Part shown: piece after piece, positions 20,685 to 28,845 of the stretch
Position numbering within the stretch: the stretch's first letter is position 1
How the letters are laid out: the number at the start of each line of letters is the position of its first letter
NCBI RefSeq assembly: GCF_000156335.1
Contig: NZ_DS999213.1
Span: 1,429,372-1,493,371 of the forward strand
DNA length: 64,000 bases
From: Roseobacter sp. GAI101
GTDB taxonomy: Bacteria > Pseudomonadota > Alphaproteobacteria > Rhodobacterales > Rhodobacteraceae
Direction of reading: 5' to 3'
Position numbers and translations under genes: made by a program
Notes under the pieces: generated by a model
Database searches by the model: none
What the model was told of the DNA's origin: nothing
The model's input: the letters and a program-made list of their open reading frames with translations, nothing else

Positions 20685-21440
20685 TCAGGCCGCTTTGGTC
20701 AAAACCTCGGTCAGCGCCTCGACCATCAGTTTCAGACACTTGTCGTCGGAAAAGCGGTGATCCGCGTCCTTGACCAGTTTCAGTTCCATATCCGGCCCTT
20801 GCGCGTGTTCCAGCAACCTGACCGCAGTGGCGACGCTGACAGCAGTATCAGCCGTGCCTAGCAGAAACCGCGTCGGGAACGGCAAATTCAAAGCGCTGCG
20901 CAGGACCAACTGGTCGCGCCCGTCTTCGATCATGCGCCGGGTGATCACGTAAGGCTCCATATAATCCGAGGGTAGTTCGACCTGCCCTTCGGTGTCCAAC
21001 TGCTGCTTTTGCGCGTCGGTAAAGCTGGCCCAATATCCGTCTTCGGTGAAATCCGGTGCCGCGGCGATCGTCACCAGCCCCGCGATCCGTTCCGGCAAGC
21101 CGCGCGCCAGCAACAGCGCCTGCCAGCCCCCCATGGACGACCCCACCGGCACGATCGGACCATCCGTCAGCGCGGTGACCGCCGCCAAGGTATCCTGCGC
21201 CCAATCGCCGATGCAGCCATCGGTGAAAGCCCCTGACGATTCACCGTGACCAGAATAATCAAACCGCAAGAACGCGCGCCCCTGACTGCGAGCCCATGCC
21301 TCAAGATGCACGGCCTTGGTACCTTGCATGTCGGATTTCAGCCCGCCTAGGAATACGATGCACGGCCCATCGCCCTCAAGACGGTGATAGGCCAGCCTGC
21401 GCCCCCCAGGCGTTTCAAGAAACGATGGCAAGGCAGTCAT
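20685..21440 (-). CDS. Alpha/beta hydrolase (carboxylesterase-like)
   Basis: This 251-residue hydrolase has the complete set: oxyanion region VFLGGLKSDMQGTKA, FDYSGHGESSG, the nucleophile elbow VGSSMGGW (Ser), an Asp strand LLGTADTAVS, and the late DADHRFSD with the His. This pattern resembles bacterial acyl-thioesterase/esterase relatives of human ABHD10. The ATG at 21440 overlaps the stop of the small upstream gene by four bases (ATGA), so the two are translationally coupled. Confidence 0.85.
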   Translation of the reverse strand: MTALPSFLETPGGRRLAYHRLEGDGPCIVFLGGLKSDMQGTKAVHLEAWARSQGRAFLRFDYSGHGESSGAFTDGCIGDWAQDTLAAVTALTDGPIVPVGSSMGGWQALLLARGLPERIAGLVTIAAAPDFTEDGYWASFTDAQKQQLDTEGQVELPSDYMEPYVITRRMIEDGRDQLVLRSALNLPFPTRFLLGTADTAVSVATAVRLLEHAQGPDMELKLVKDADHRFSDDKCLKLMVEALTEVLTKAA

Positions 21441-21670
21441 CCGCCCAGATACGTGCCCTTCGAGGGGCGGTAAAATATCTTTTGATTGTGCAGCCGTCCC
21501 AGCAAATCGTCGATCTTGCGCAGGGAATCCTCGGCAGCGTCGGCGGGCAACATCGCTTGCGTGCCCTCCAGAAGGTCCATGGATAAATCGCGCTTGGTAA
21601 CGTGCAGGGCGGCTTCGATCAGGTCGATGTCTTCGATCGTCAGTTCGAAATTGCGGTTGTGCTTGGCCAT
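21437..21670 (-). CDS. Small conserved hypothetical protein
   Basis: This 77-residue soluble protein (MAKHNRNFELTIEDIDLIE and onward) has no recognised domain. It is predicted to be mostly helical, with an acidic middle and a basic C-terminus (FYRPSKGTYLGG). The ATG at 21670 is used; a TTG 6 bases upstream is also in frame. Its stop overlaps the start of the downstream esterase-like gene, and similar small proteins are common next to this hydrolase in the family. Function is not known. Confidence 0.7.
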   Translation of the reverse strand: MAKHNRNFELTIEDIDLIEAALHVTKRDLSMDLLEGTQAMLPADAAEDSLRKIDDLLGRLHNQKIFYRPSKGTYLGG

Positions 21671-21726
21671 ATCCAAAACCTTTCGAGATATTACACCCCC
21701 TTACATAGAAGGGGATGGCGCAACGT

Positions 21727-23007
21727 TCAATCTCCCCCTTCGACCTCACGCAGGCCAAGGGCGGCGATCGCAGCCCCCACCGCCATCAGCGCAAATAAAA
21801 TCAGCGTCGCGTTCGGCCCGATCAGCGCAGCCCCCCCGCCGACAACCCCCGCGACCAGCAACAGCACACCGATCACCGTGTTGGACACCGCGGCATAGGC
21901 CGACCGCTGGCCTTCGGGGGACATGTCCACCAGATAGGTCGATCGCCCCTGACGGACCCCGTGATAGGCGATCATCAGGATGAACAACACCAGCGGCATC
22001 GCCCAGAACCGGGTGGCCAGCCCAAGGGCGTTCAGCCCCACGGCCCCCGCCATCGCCAGCGCGCCCACGACGCCCGTCAGCATCAACACCTTGCGGCTGG
22101 ATTGGTCCGACATGCGGCCCCAGACATAGGAACTGACGAGGGATGCAAGCGCCGACGCCAGCACCAGCGCCCCCAGCGTGCCAAGCGCAGAGCCGCCTTG
22201 CCCCCCCGCCAGCACCACGAAATACGGCGGGGCCAGTGCGGTCGAGACCAACAGCCCGCGCACCAGGATAAAGCGGCGCAGGTTTGCGTCGTCTTTCAGG
22301 ACGCCGAAACGCGCACGGCTGGCGTTGGACGGATCGCTTTTCATTTCCTTCAGCGTCGAAAACAGCAGCGCCGCAGCACCCCAAAGCACCGCCGCCAAAG
22401 CGATGGCGGCAATCACGACCCCCCTGTTTTCGAACAGCCCCGACATCAGCAGGACCGCCAGCACCAAAACGCCGGCCGAAGATACCGATCCCGCCGTTCC
22501 GGTGATCGCCCCGCGGCGCGATTTGCCGACGGTCTTGCCCAGGATATCCTTGAACGACACCGAACAGGCCGCGCGGCACAGCGCCAGCCCGCCAAGCGCC
22601 GCACAGATCGCATAGCCCGCCGCCGCCCCGTCAAGGGTCAGGGCCGACACCACGATCAGCGCCGCAAACAGCCCCTGCCCCGCGCTGCCGATGATCCACG
22701 CCCATTTGCGGTGCCGCATGGCCTGCACCCGCGACGCCATCAGCATTTGCGGCAGCAACGCCCCGCTTTCCCGGATCGGGACCAAAGCCCCCGCAAAGAC
22801 GGCAGGCGCGCCAAGCGAGGTCAAAAGCCATGACAACATCAGCTTGGGGTCAATCAGCCCATCGGCCAGTTTCGACATGACCAGACTGGCGATATGGCGC
22901 AGCGCATTGGGCGCTTCGACCTCTTGCGCGCCGCTGGACAGATCGTCGGCCTCCCCCTGTGCGCCCGCGAGTTTGTCGAAGGCGTATCGTACCGGTCCAT
23001 CTTGCAT
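21727..23007 (-). CDS. MFS transporter
   Basis: This 426-residue inner-membrane protein has about 12 hydrophobic segments with a central cytoplasmic loop (LKEMKSDPSNASRARFGVLKDD), as in the major facilitator family. The motif YVWGRMSDQSSRKVLMLTG in the second half resembles the MFS motif A. A hydrophilic N-terminal stretch of about 45 residues precedes the first helix, which is longer than usual. The substrate cannot be told. It is divergent from thrS across a 179-base gap, with no neighbouring pathway genes to suggest a cargo. Confidence 0.85.
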   Translation of the reverse strand: MQDGPVRYAFDKLAGAQGEADDLSSGAQEVEAPNALRHIASLVMSKLADGLIDPKLMLSWLLTSLGAPAVFAGALVPIRESGALLPQMLMASRVQAMRHRKWAWIIGSAGQGLFAALIVVSALTLDGAAAGYAICAALGGLALCRAACSVSFKDILGKTVGKSRRGAITGTAGSVSSAGVLVLAVLLMSGLFENRGVVIAAIALAAVLWGAAALLFSTLKEMKSDPSNASRARFGVLKDDANLRRFILVRGLLVSTALAPPYFVVLAGGQGGSALGTLGALVLASALASLVSSYVWGRMSDQSSRKVLMLTGVVGALAMAGAVGLNALGLATRFWAMPLVLFILMIAYHGVRQGRSTYLVDMSPEGQRSAYAAVSNTVIGVLLLVAGVVGGGAALIGPNATLILFALMAVGAAIAALGLREVEGGD

Positions 23008-25133: not shown

Positions 25134-25152
25134 TCGCCCCTGTAACAATCAC

Positions 25153-25182
25153 ATCCCGGCGGAAAATCACCTTCGCCGGGAT
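25153..25182 (+). terminator. Hairpin after thrS
   Basis: ATCCCGGCG (25153-25161) pairs perfectly with CGCCGGGAT (25174-25182) around a 12-base loop, 19 bases after the thrS stop. There is no T-run, so termination may be partial or protein-assisted. It separates thrS from the bufferin operon. Confidence 0.5.
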
Positions 25183-25276
25183 ATGACAGTATGTTTCACC
25201 AAGACTTGGACTTTTGGCGGCATTCAGGTAGTTTTCTGCCAATTGTTACAAAAAACCGGCAAAATTCCTGACGCTC

Positions 25277-25304
25277 TTGTGACACACTGCGACGTGAGTA
25301 GATT
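25277..25304 (+). promoter_or_regulatory. Possible promoter of the bufferin operon
   Basis: TTGTGA (25277-25282), a 16-base spacer, and TAGATT (25299-25304) form a weak housekeeping-type promoter about 65 bases before the first gene. Metal-stress operons of this type may use ECF sigma factors, but no clear ECF -35/-10 pair was identified here. Confidence 0.25.
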
Positions 25305-25369: not shown

Positions 25370-25672
25370 ATGTCCATAACACTGAAAACTTTCGCCGTCG
25401 CCAGTGCCGTTGCAACGGCTTTCGCCGCCCAGACATCCCCCGCCAACGCCGCCACGAAAGAGAAATGCTTTGGCGTGGCTCTGGCTGGTGAAAACGGTTG
25501 CGCGGCCGGTCCCGGCACCACCTGCGCAGGCACATCCGTCACCGATTACCAGGGCAACGCCTGGACGCTGGTTGACGCGGGCACATGCGAATCCATGGAT
25601 CTGCCGGAAATGGCCGACGGGTCCGAGCGTAAAGGATCGCTTGAGGCCGTTGACCGCGACCTGCCCGCCTAA
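25370..25672 (+). CDS. bufA: Bufferin-type precursor (DUF2282), BufA-like
   Basis: This 100-residue exported protein has a signal peptide ending near residue 27 (ANA/ATK). The mature core contains four cysteines at 33, 44, 52 and 73 in the DUF2282 arrangement: [21 protein letters not shown] and AGTCESM. In bufferins the core is modified by the next gene's product on cysteines, and the periplasmic peptide chelates copper. An acidic tail follows ([16 protein letters not shown]). A strong GGAGGAA ribosome binding site precedes the ATG. Whether this copy is truly a copper binder is inferred from family and context. Confidence 0.88.
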
Positions 25673-25749
25673 ACAGCCCTCAGCGCAGGCCGCACCCCCG
25701 CCGCCTGCGCCCCGCTTGGCTGGTAATATCCTGATTGAAAGGGCGCGTC

Positions 25750-26598
25750 ATGCTTGATGATGAACGCCGCTTTGATGGCCTGCCTGCACGTCCCGGCGTT
25801 GGCTATAAACCTCAACATTTCAGCGCCTTGCAGGCCGATCCCGGCCCTGTCGCATGGATCGAGGTGCACGCGGAAAACTATATGGGCGATGGTGGCCGGC
25901 CGCATGCGCAACTGCGCGCACTGTCTGAACGGTTTGCCCTGTCCATCCACGGTGTCGGCCTGAGCATCGGCGGCGAAACCCCGCTGGACCGTGATCACCT
26001 TGCCCGCCTGAAAACGCTGTGTGACTGGGCGCAACCGGCAAGTTTTTCCGAACATCTGGCATGGTCGACCCACGGGGCCGAATATCTTAACGATCTGTTG
26101 CCCTTGCCCTATACCGACGCGACCCTTGCCCGCGTCGCCAGCCATATTGCCCAGGTTCAGGACGTGTTGGGGCGGCAAATGCTGCTCGAAAACCCCTCCA
26201 GTTACCTCGCTTTTGCGGACTCAACGATGTCCGAGACTGAATTTCTGGCGGCCCTTGTTGACAGAACCGGCTGCGGCCTGCTGCTGGATGTGAACAACGT
26301 CTTTGTCTCGGCCACCAATCTGGACCTGTCCGCGCAGGCCTATCTGGATGCCTACCCCCTTGCCCATGTGCAAGAGTTCCATGTCGGCGGCCACGATGAA
26401 GACCACGATGACACCGGTGCCCCCTTGCTGATCGACAGCCATGGCAAACACGTGATCGATCCGGTCTGGACCCTGCTAGAGCACGCTTTGGCCACAACAG
26501 GCCCCAAGCCTGTTCTGGTTGAGTGGGACAATCACGTGCCCGACTGGCCGACGCTGCGTGCACAAGCACAGCGCGCCGCCAAGGCGCTTGCGACGTGA
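25750..26598 (+). CDS. bufB: MNIO/DUF692 peptide-modifying enzyme, BufB-like
   Basis: This 282-residue enzyme belongs to the multinuclear non-heme iron oxidative family (TIM barrel). Likely metal ligands can be seen: H68 (SIHGVG), H102 (SEHLAWS), E147 (LLENPSSY), D180 and N182 (LLDVNNVF), H211 and H215 (EFHVGGH), D229 and H231 (DSHGKH), E258 (LVEWDNH). It is expected to modify precursor cysteines oxidatively, probably to thiooxazoles as in known bufferins. The ATG at 25750 lies 77 bases after the precursor gene. Its stop overlaps the GTG of the partner gene. Confidence 0.9.
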
Positions 26599-27344
26599 GC
26601 GACCAAACCACCTTTCGGCAAGGGCTGCTTGACCCGTCGCGCGCCACCCCCGACGGGCTGAAGGGGCCAGCAAACGCGCCTGCGGGCAAACGCTATGACG
26701 TCTACCGCAACAATGTCACCCATTCGCTGATTGCAGCCCTGCAAACCGCGTTTCCCCTGGTGCGCAAGATTCTGGGCGGCCAAAGCTTTGACAGCTTGGC
26801 CCCGATCTATGTCCGTGCACACCCGCCCAAATCGCCCGTGATGATGCAGTACGGCATTGATTTTCCAGCATTTCTGGAAACCCTGCCGCAGCTTTCAAAG
26901 CTTGGGTATCTGCCCGATTGCGCCCGTTTTGATCTGGCCTTGCGCGGCTCCTACCATGCCGCCGACGCAGCCCCCTTTGATCTGGCCGCGTTCCAGACCC
27001 TGCCCCCCGATGAAATGATGGCACAGCGCCTGCCCGTCGCACCGGCCACGCGCATTCTGCGCTCGCACTGGCCGCTGTATGACATCTGGCGGTTCAACAC
27101 GGTCGCCGATGCGCCCAAGCCGCGGCCCGTAGCGCAGGACGTGATGATCACGCGGCCGCAGTTTGATCCCGAACCGCATCTTCTCCCCCCGGGGGCCGCA
27201 GATTGGCTTGACCGCTTGGCACAAGGTGACAGTGTTCAGGCCGCCCATGACGCGACCCTGACGACGACGCCCGAATTCGATCTGGCTGCCACTCTCGTCG
27301 TCACCCTGGGCAAAAGCGCTTTTTGCACCGATGAGGGGCGCTAG
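26595..27344 (+). CDS. bufC: DUF2063 partner protein, BufC-like
   Basis: This 249-residue protein has an N-terminal DUF2063 domain ([18 protein letters not shown], then [29 protein letters not shown]). A second region (about 140-249) includes [16 protein letters not shown]. In MNIO systems this partner binds the precursor leader and brings it to the oxidase. The GTG start at 26595 overlaps the stop of the previous gene (GTGA), showing translational coupling. The partner is soluble and cytoplasmic, consistent with modification before export. Confidence 0.88.
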
Positions 27345-27345
27345 G

Positions 27346-27888
27346 ATGGCACGAACACTCGGACGCTACGACAGCCTTGTCACTTTTGTGGAAAGCCAGA
27401 CTTGGCTGCTGCCAACCCTCGCGCGGCTGATTTTCACGGGCGTTCTGTCGCTTTACTTTTTCAACTCTGGCTTGACGAAACTGGGTGACGGGTTTCTTGG
27501 CATTCTTGCCCCCAGCACCGGGGCCTATGTGCAGATTTTTCCCCGCGCCTTCGAGGCCGTCGGATATGACACGGATGGGCTGGGCCTATTTCATGACCTG
27601 ATCGTGCTGGGCGGGACGCTGGCCGAATTCGCGCTGCCCATGCTGATCATCATCGGGCTTTTCACCCGCTTCGCGGCGATCGGCATGATCGGCTTTGTCG
27701 TGCTGCAATCGCTTACCGATGTGATTGGCCATGGCCAGACCGGGGTGCTGGGGGCATGGTTCGACCGCTTTCCCGACGCTGCTATTCTGGACCAACGGGC
27801 CTTTTGGGTCTTTGTCTTGCTGACCCTCGCGGTGAAGGGAGGCGGTCCGCTGTCGCTCGACCGTCTGATCGTGGCGCGCACCCGCTAG
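27346..27888 (+). CDS. bufD: DoxX family membrane protein, BufD-like
   Basis: This 180-residue inner-membrane protein has four hydrophobic segments. The first contains LARLIFTGVLSLYFFNSGLTKL, the DoxX start pattern. It is the usual fourth gene of DUF2282-DUF692-DUF2063 operons. Its role is not established; ideas include help with export, redox or quinone-linked electron supply. The ATG at 27346 follows AGGGGCGCTAGG and lies one base after the previous stop. It ends the operon, 10 bases before a convergent gene. Confidence 0.85.
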   Translation: MARTLGRYDSLVTFVESQTWLLPTLARLIFTGVLSLYFFNSGLTKLGDGFLGILAPSTGAYVQIFPRAFEAVGYDTDGLGLFHDLIVLGGTLAEFALPMLIIIGLFTRFAAIGMIGFVVLQSLTDVIGHGQTGVLGAWFDRFPDAAILDQRAFWVFVLLTLAVKGGGPLSLDRLIVARTR

Positions 27889-27898
27889 GTATACGCTG

Positions 27899-28216
27899 TT
27901 ACAATGCGGTCACTTGCGCCGCGACATCCTTGGTCCAGCCAAGATACAGCGTGCCATCCGCATCAATCAACGGGCGCTTCATCAACGCAGGATGCGCGGC
28001 AATCAGCGCCAGCGGATCTTGGTCGCGTTCTTGTGAATCAAGGCCCCGCCATGTGGTTGAACGCGTGTTCAACAACGCCGCCCCGAATTGCGCAAAAGCG
28101 CGCGCCATCACGTCGTCGGGGACACCGTCAGCGCGGACATCCACCAGCGTCGCATCCGGCAGGCTGCGCAGCGCCTTGCGGCAGGTATCACAATTTTTCA
28201 GACCGTAGATGATCAT
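27899..28216 (-). CDS. ArsC/Spx-like thioredoxin-fold protein
   Basis: This 105-residue protein has the ArsC-family N-terminus IIYGLKNCDTCRKALRSL with the CxxC pair (Cys9, Cys12), and the late KRPLIDADGTLYLGW block. That fits the YffB/ArsC-like group (often glutathione-dependent) rather than true arsenate reductase. The ATG at 28216 was chosen as the family start, with GGGGA upstream. It converges with the bufferin operon and has no ars genes nearby, so an arsenate role is doubtful. Confidence 0.82.
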   Translation of the reverse strand: MIIYGLKNCDTCRKALRSLPDATLVDVRADGVPDDVMARAFAQFGAALLNTRSTTWRGLDSQERDQDPLALIAAHPALMKRPLIDADGTLYLGWTKDVAAQVTAL

Positions 28217-28485
28217 ATTTTCCCCGTATCGATAAGCTTCCCGGCATGTGACATCACGGTGCAGGCCGGATTTCATTTCCCCGCAGCATGCCCCACTTTT
28301 CAAGCAAGGCGGCGCAAGGCTTTCTGACGCGGTCAGAGCCTTTCAGCAAGACGCAATACGACACAGAAAGGATGGGAAACAGGCGATCAGAAACCGTCAG
28401 ATGGCCACGGATCGAAGCGTACATTATAAAGAAACCGCGGCGCTCGTCGACCGCTGCCGCTCTACATCATCTCGGGCGGGCGTCT

Positions 28486-28779
28486 TCAGCGGCAGCCTTT
28501 CTCACCGGGCAGGCAGGAATAGCTGACCGGTCTGGGCTGGTAATACCGTGCCTTGTGCGCCTTCTTGACCGGATGCGCCATCATGCTTTGGTAGCTGACG
28601 CTTTGGTTGGGCGTCCCGCAGCAGATCACACCGGCAATCGTAATCGGCTGAAGGCCCGCGGGGCAGTAATTCGCCGTGGTCGGGTAAGGGTAAATCTTGG
28701 CTTCGGCAGAGACCTGTGCAGGGGCCAGCGCGCCCGCCATCATGCTGATCCCGACGATCATTGCTGTTTGTAGACGCAT
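28486..28779 (-). CDS. Small exported Cys-rich hypothetical protein
   Basis: This 97-residue protein has a signal peptide (about 1-25, ending QVSA) followed by YPTTANYCPAGLQPITIAGVICCGTPNQ and a basic, Tyr/Pro-rich tail (YYQPRPVSYSCLPGEKGCR). Five mature cysteines are visible, so disulphides in the periplasm are likely. No domain is recognised. The second of two adjacent ATGs is used because GAGGG is then 5 bases away. It lies between an ArsC-like gene and the P450, without an evident link to either. Confidence 0.65.
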   Translation of the reverse strand: MRLQTAMIVGISMMAGALAPAQVSAEAKIYPYPTTANYCPAGLQPITIAGVICCGTPNQSVSYQSMMAHPVKKAHKARYYQPRPVSYSCLPGEKGCR

Positions 28780-28845
28780 CATATCCCTCGTTTTTTTCCG
28801 CTTTTGTTAAACTCTGCCCAGCGTGGGGCCCCAAGTCCAGCCTTT

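Follow-up and report, generated by a model that had tools for sequence, protein, structure and literature searches.

Bufferins, which have been described only recently, are a widespread means of copper handling. Those of the Buf1 type are exported DUF2282 peptides in which the central cysteines are converted to thiooxazoles and the outer two form a disulfide, and which chelate copper (PMC12452194). The operon of Caulobacter vibrioides, buf1 (CCNA_03363-03366), has been described as copper-induced and as being under the control of the sigma factor sigma-F and NrsF (PMC3511200, PMC8224329). An operon of this type was examined at positions 25370 to 27888 of a 64,000 nucleotide stretch of DNA (hereafter the window, whose numbering is used throughout) from Roseobacter sp. 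GAI101 (assembly GCF_000156335.1, contig NZ_DS999213.1, positions 1,429,372 to 1,493,371 of the forward strand). The genome is Sulfitobacter-like, and counts given for the genus refer to Sulfitobacter. The reading that is held here to be highly probable is a joint one, namely that this is a Buf1-type bufferin operon for a copper-sequestering modified peptide, that it is controlled by a separately encoded regulator through a tandem dyad upstream of bufA, and that a stem-loop in the bufA-bufB spacer contributes to its expression.

Genes and products of the bufferin operon

Four open reading frames (ORFs) were confirmed on the plus strand in the order and at the positions given by an earlier reading of the DNA made from sequence alone (the sequence-only reading). 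These are bufA (25370..25672), encoding a DUF2282 precursor of 100 aa (PF10048); bufB (25750..26598), encoding an MNIO (DUF692) bufferin maturase of 282 aa (PF05114 and NF050167); bufC (26595..27344), with a GTG start, encoding an MNIO partner of 249 aa consisting of DUF2063 and a C-terminal domain; and bufD (27346..27888), encoding a DoxX-family membrane protein of 180 aa (PF07681). That reading had described the genes as joined by overlaps or one-base gaps, which is accurate for bufB and bufC, whose stop and start share four bases (GTGA), and for bufC and the doxX gene, which lie one base apart, but not for bufA and bufB, which are separated by 77 bases (25673-25749). The four Pfam checks that it had proposed (PF10048, PF05114, PF09836, PF07681) all gave matches above the curated cut-offs. 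Its assignment of a bufferin-type layout also stood, as the gene order matches that of Caulobacter CCNA_03363-03366 and the description in PMC12452194, and BufB passes the bufferin-maturase equivalog. Judged by its sequence, the locus is a complete Buf1-type (DUF2282) bufferin cluster and an ordinary member of a known family. Genome-wide, a single DUF2282 match (BufA) and a single MNIO match (BufB) were identified.

BufA was found to be present in 57 of 58 genus genomes (own genome included), the lone genome without it being 84% complete, and a BufA match was obtained in 110 of 289 genomes across the class. Comparisons were made among 80 loci of named relatives, which were selected through BufB, together with genus loci and class-wide loci; the 170 loci are mutually related, have the window's own copy among them and include one record twice (L002 and L105). 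All 80 named loci possess bufA, bufB and bufC, with all four genes ordered A-B-C-D in 56 of them (tblastn, E 1e-3).

The BufA precursor matched PF10048 with 78 bits (cut-off 22.4) over residues 30-78, with no NCBIfam match. Its four spaced cysteines are located at residues 33, 44, 52 and 73, as previously noted, and all are invariant in an alignment of 22 BufA sequences. By eye, the N-terminus is signal-peptide-like, with K6, a hydrophobic stretch and ANA at residues 25-27. The structure model of BufA was unusable, with a predicted local distance difference test score (pLDDT) of 51.5. The acidic, charged tail that had been pointed out after the last cysteine was confirmed, with eight D/E and three K/R among the last 27 residues. 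A motif following the last cysteine, R[DN][LIVM]P, which falls outside the Pfam-matched region, was identified in all 30 genus loci, in 55 of the 57 named loci outside Hyphomicrobiales (the remaining two having NRDRPA) and in 14 of 60 class-wide loci. It was present in none of the 23 named loci of Hyphomicrobiales (orders being assigned through record titles), where BufA stops soon past a GSL-like motif. Longer tails occur in L022, L047, L052, L055 and L062, in which RDLP is kept and is followed by an extension. Given its presence in the genus and in nearly all other named loci and its absence from those of Hyphomicrobiales, the acidic tail is, on these counts, a lineage trait.

BufB scored 348.6 bits against PF05114 (MbnB_TglH_ChrH), above cut-off, and 371.5 bits against the MNIO_BufB equivalog NF050167 (cut-off 310). 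The next best NCBIfam match, to the HvfB model, was below its cut-off (242.6 against 360), as were those to the models of MbnB (59 against 325), ApyH and ChrH. Residues H67, H102, E147, D180, N183, H211, H215, D229, H231 and E258 are invariant among 19 BufB sequences. The nearest solved structure is 3BWW, with which the His/Asp/Glu/Asn metal-site motifs align. Judged by motif and spacing, N182/N183, D229 and H231 of BufB probably correspond to N175, D242 and H244 of HvfB.

BufC matched PF09836 with 81.1 bits, above cut-off, and sequence searches of BufC against the PDB gave no match. Its AlphaFold2 model (pLDDT 92.9) had as top Foldseek matches TglHI chain A (E 1.6e-5, template modelling (TM) score 0.60), which we take to be TglI by its length, and 3DEE (E 5e-5, TM 0.57), which is NGO1945, named as an MNIO partner (PMC13097082). 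These fits are only moderate (TM 0.57-0.62, root-mean-square deviation 5-7), and matches of the model to the stand-alone RRE 5v1u (E 4.7) and to MbnC (E 0.29) were not significant. As modelled, BufC would consist of DUF2063 fused to an RRE-type domain. The DoxX protein matched PF07681 with 31.7 bits (cut-off 23.6).

The tandem dyad and the absence of NrsF and sigma-F-type sites

The regions upstream of bufA were found to have in common the pattern TnAC-N6-GTGA-N-nCAC-N6-GTGA. Within the window this appears at 25269..25299 on the plus strand as the tandem dyad TGAC-N6-GTGA-N-ACAC-N6-GTGA, a candidate operator by the conservation of the pattern. A search of its own genome allowing up to two mismatches returned this exact match and one match with two mismatches elsewhere. 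When one mismatch at most was allowed, the 31-base pattern was identified in 54 of 55 genus genomes, the remaining genome being one without a BufA match, and each of the 54 possesses one such site 92-107 bp before bufA. An additional match away from bufA was present in four genus genomes, each with one mismatch, and a reversed control pattern matched in three of the 55. When a 16-position template was applied, 76 of 110 loci scored at least 13, compared to one of 2200 mononucleotide-shuffled regions.

This template had been composed after most of the 110 loci had been seen, and the spacing of the half-sites was therefore tested on 60 newly fetched class-wide loci. TCAC-Nk-GTGA occurred there in ten loci at k=6, with zero to two at each of the remaining k values between 0 and 13, and zero or one for the reversed form, while CAC-Nk-GTGA occurred in 17 at k=6 and in zero to five at other values. 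Among the 80 named loci, the corresponding numbers at k=6 were 11 for the TCAC form and 46 for the CAC form, with up to three and ten, respectively, at other k. The CAC form was found in 27 of 29 genus loci at k=6 and in 18 at k=8, the latter count being due to the core holding a second CAC two bases earlier. No tandem repeats were found upstream. The TnAC-N6-GTnA geometry may resemble that of the CusR/HprR box. The Sulfitobacter lineage has a conserved control region of which no description was found; neither the dyad (string TCACNNNNNNGTGA included) nor the spacer stem-loop was encountered in the literature searched, in which subscription papers were few.

The sigma-F/NrsF-controlled class is defined by sigF-nrsF and a GTAACC-N16-CGAA promoter, and neither was identified here. 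NrsF is absent from the window's own genome (96.5% complete). Among 60 genomes searched, the 36 of the genus, that genome being one of them, all lack it, and the four in which it was found belong to other families. The closest SigF-like protein of the genome is 30% identical, at 33.2 bits. No GTAACn-N15-17-CGAA site occurs in the 350-base upstream regions of 30 of 30 genus loci. Across the 170 loci, the tandem dyad was found in 79, none with a detected NrsF neighbour, and an NrsF neighbour in at least 35, none with the tandem dyad, with neither in 56. The figure of 35 is a lower bound obtained by tblastn with one query and leaves out G061, where NrsF lies approximately 1 kb from bufA, and relatedness among loci inflates the dyad and NrsF counts. 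Most roseobacter loci examined carry the tandem dyad, and two of Pseudooceanicola, one of Defluviimonas and one of Rhodobacter (L024, L027, L050 and L073) retain NrsF next to the operon together with a sigma-F-type site. The sequence-only reading had remarked that no copper regulator is adjacent to the operon, and no regulator gene was seen among its neighbours (thrS, an ArsC-family gene, a 98-aa ORF and a P450 gene). This goes together with the finding that the genus genomes searched lack NrsF and with the conserved alternative cis-element.

Ten loci that have a sigma-F-type site and an NrsF neighbour (L024, L027, L050, L058, L063, L079, L151, L153, L155 and L167) were found to carry a single CAC-N6-GTGA dyad, which ends up 4-6 bases in front of GTAAC. 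CAC-N6-GTGA is lacking in the 25 remaining loci that have NrsF next door, and a strict sigma-F-type site is lacking in 19 of all 35. These ten loci bear on whether the tandem dyad is an operator at all, as it could instead form part of an unusual promoter for another sigma factor that replaced sigma-F. Its near-fixed distance from bufA, its single occurrence before bufA in each genome and the lack of an NrsF neighbour where it is present would all suit such a promoter. However, the position of the single dyad just upstream of a GTAACn-N15-17-CGAA site indicates that a dyad and a separate promoter can occur together, and the dyad symmetry fits a dimeric regulator, so that a replacement promoter is regarded as unlikely.

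With the dyad taken as an operator, the single form may represent an older operator of alphaproteobacterial bufferin genes, one that in other orders functions alongside sigma-F. The simplest reading, which is an evolutionary inference, is that the dyad worked singly beside sigma-F in some lineages and was doubled in roseobacters upon loss of sigF-nrsF. We give about even chances to the more specific proposal that roseobacter bufferin operons have left sigma-F/NrsF and are served by a dedicated regulator using the tandem dyad, which occurs essentially once per genome, before bufA.

The spacer stem-loop and the proposed function

The bufA-bufB spacer of the window holds a stem-loop at 25683..25710 (plus strand) with an uninterrupted stem of 8 bp. 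When the 90 bases past bufA were investigated for an uninterrupted stem of at least nine pairs (G-U allowed), one was found in 100 of 110 loci, compared to 93 of 1100 shuffles. Against dinucleotide shuffles, the stem was present in 74 of 80 named loci (9.9% in shuffles), 26 of 30 genus loci (6.0%) and 35 of 60 class-wide loci (13%). The same test gave 10, 2 and 17 loci of these sets for upstream windows (controls 9.4%, 9.7% and 11.3%), and 5, 3 and 5 for coding windows (controls 10.6%, 9.3% and 16%). A T run follows the stem in only 5 of 74, 0 of 26 and 2 of 35 cases, and most spacer stems are therefore not ordinary terminators. A terminator scan found three, with 3.5 expected. The words stem-loop, hairpin, terminator and promoter are absent from PMC12452194.

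In the mechanism proposed, BufA would be made with a Sec signal peptide, as predicted from its sequence, and the iron-dependent MNIO BufB would, with BufC, oxidise the central Cys44 and Cys52 to 5-thiooxazoles before export, with Cys33 and Cys73 forming a disulfide. In the periplasm, the modified peptide would then sequester Cu(I)/Cu(II) present in excess, with DoxX assisting in some manner. For this operon, we infer copper binding and thiooxazole modification by transfer from characterised relatives. A separately encoded regulator would probably bind the tandem dyad (25269-25299), with the promoter somewhere downstream of it, and activate or, less likely, repress transcription. The spacer stem-loop probably shields the message or causes partial termination, which would result in more precursor than enzyme.

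Several results count against this account of the operon. The window's own spacer stem has 8 pairs, and its folding is only slightly better than that of shuffles (z -1.22). CAC-N6-GTGA is not found in 43 of the 60 class-wide loci or in 34 of the 80 named ones, and strict TCAC-N6-GTGA occurs in none of 29 genus loci, this being due to the half-sites there being TGAC and ACAC. A scan for a sigma-70-like promoter found none. A search for the regulator through neighbouring genes, by ORF clusters in 56 named loci and by eye, from N-terminal residues, in 16 of the 60 class-wide loci, identified sigF-nrsF as the only regulatory genes recurring across families. CopR/CusR-type regulators gave 42 matches in the genome, none above cut-off (best 251.3, cut-off 279.2), and inspection by eye of the genes beside two among the best of these matches (251 bits) revealed no copper gene. 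BufC and the DoxX protein fall below the NCBIfam cut-offs of HvfC (34.9 against 142) and HvfX (26.3 against 80). Lastly, the homologous cluster of Cupriavidus metallidurans was reported to have no effect on copper resistance, with other copper determinants of that organism as a caveat.

The Cupriavidus finding also lends itself to a different view of the product, as a thiooxazole metallophore whose main ligand is gold, silver, mercury or zinc, or as part of a response to general envelope stress. Gig operons of Cupriavidus and Legionella respond to gold besides copper, MerC-bufferin fusions exist (PMC12452194), and with sigF-nrsF missing the copper/chromium/cadmium response of Caulobacter is not simply transferable. 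On the other hand, the Caulobacter cluster was copper-induced under all conditions tested and its sigma factor mutant was copper sensitive, and among the neighbours of the window operon only an ArsC/Spx-like gene, on the opposite strand, could hint at a metal. A different main ligand or a role in envelope stress is considered improbable.

Neighbouring genes

The upstream neighbour of the operon is thrS, a relative of which was found in 53 of 56 named loci (L002-L057, tblastn), lying at most 1 kb before bufA in 48; this and the following neighbour counts are bounded by the flanking DNA examined per locus. Behind thrS, at 25141-25198, a hairpin (ATCCCGGCG...CGCCGGGAT) is situated between TGTAACA and TGTTTCA, and TGTAACA-like motifs occur at the matching position in many other Sulfitobacter loci. 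Downstream, three genes lie on the minus strand. The ArsC/Spx-like gene (27899-28303; PF03960) is convergent with the operon and has a relative downstream in 48 of the 56 named loci. It is followed by an ORF outside any Pfam family (28486-28782) for a small, cysteine-rich protein of 98 aa, whose N-terminus looks like a signal peptide and which has downstream relatives in 13 of the 56, and by the P450 gene (28846-30045). Genes for a major facilitator superfamily (MFS) transporter and an alpha/beta hydrolase (20685-23007, minus strand) are located beyond thrS.

Among other loci, two ORFs were each seen once by eye. L127, which lacks the dyad, has a TetR-like ORF at 1.3 kb upstream, and L135, which carries the dyad, has an ArsR-like one at 3 kb downstream. 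Downstream of doxX in L144 and L147, which belong to one family, an Hpt-like ORF and a receiver-like ORF were observed by eye at 2.6 kb and 3 kb from bufA, respectively, and these possibly constitute a phosphorelay next to the buf genes.

The P450, MFS and hydrolase genes recall Sulfitobacter RiPP (ribosomally synthesised and post-translationally modified peptide) clusters with DUF692 and P450 genes, in three strains also with an MFS transporter, which are transcribed in marine biofilms and for which a role in competition has been suggested (PMC11278168); the words copper and bufferin are absent from that paper. It is nevertheless very improbable that the window cluster makes an antimicrobial RiPP for competition. 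Its precursor is a DUF2282 protein and its maturase passes the bufferin equivalog, none of the three genes in question shares the strand of the operon, a P450 relative was found in just 5 of the 56 named loci, and the near-universal occurrence of BufA in the genus is better suited to homeostasis. The operon offers a copper-handling alternative to the competition-peptide reading of Sulfitobacter DUF692 clusters. In addition, the 31-bp element provides a testable lead to control in the marine roseobacter group without the known sigma factor and could be used as bait for the regulator.

Comparison with known systems

Methanobactin (MbnBC) and pearlin (TglHI) systems also pair an MNIO with a partner protein, and TglHI chain A is the best match of the BufC model. 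Their precursors and products differ from bufferin, and BufB is far below the MbnB cut-off. Captophorins and oxazolin (HvfABC, FonABC) likewise rely on an MNIO with a DUF2063 partner, which install 5-thiooxazole on copper-binding cysteine peptides (PMC13097082, PMC13419390). Their precursors have EGKCG repeats, in contrast to the four-cysteine DUF2282 protein of the window, and BufB and BufC are below the cut-offs for HvfB and HvfC. The gig operons of Cupriavidus metallidurans and Legionella pneumophila, reported to be gold- and copper-induced, are termed bufferin clusters in PMC12452194, and the Legionella gig paper contains the terms DUF692, DUF2282 and DUF2063. Caulobacter vibrioides buf1 shares the same four families in the same order (DUF2282-DUF692-DUF2063-DoxX) and the four conserved precursor cysteines, as judged by its published description. 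The difference lies in control, as buf1 has sigF-nrsF and a GTAACC-N16-CGAA promoter, whereas the window operon has neither NrsF nor such a site and carries the tandem dyad instead.

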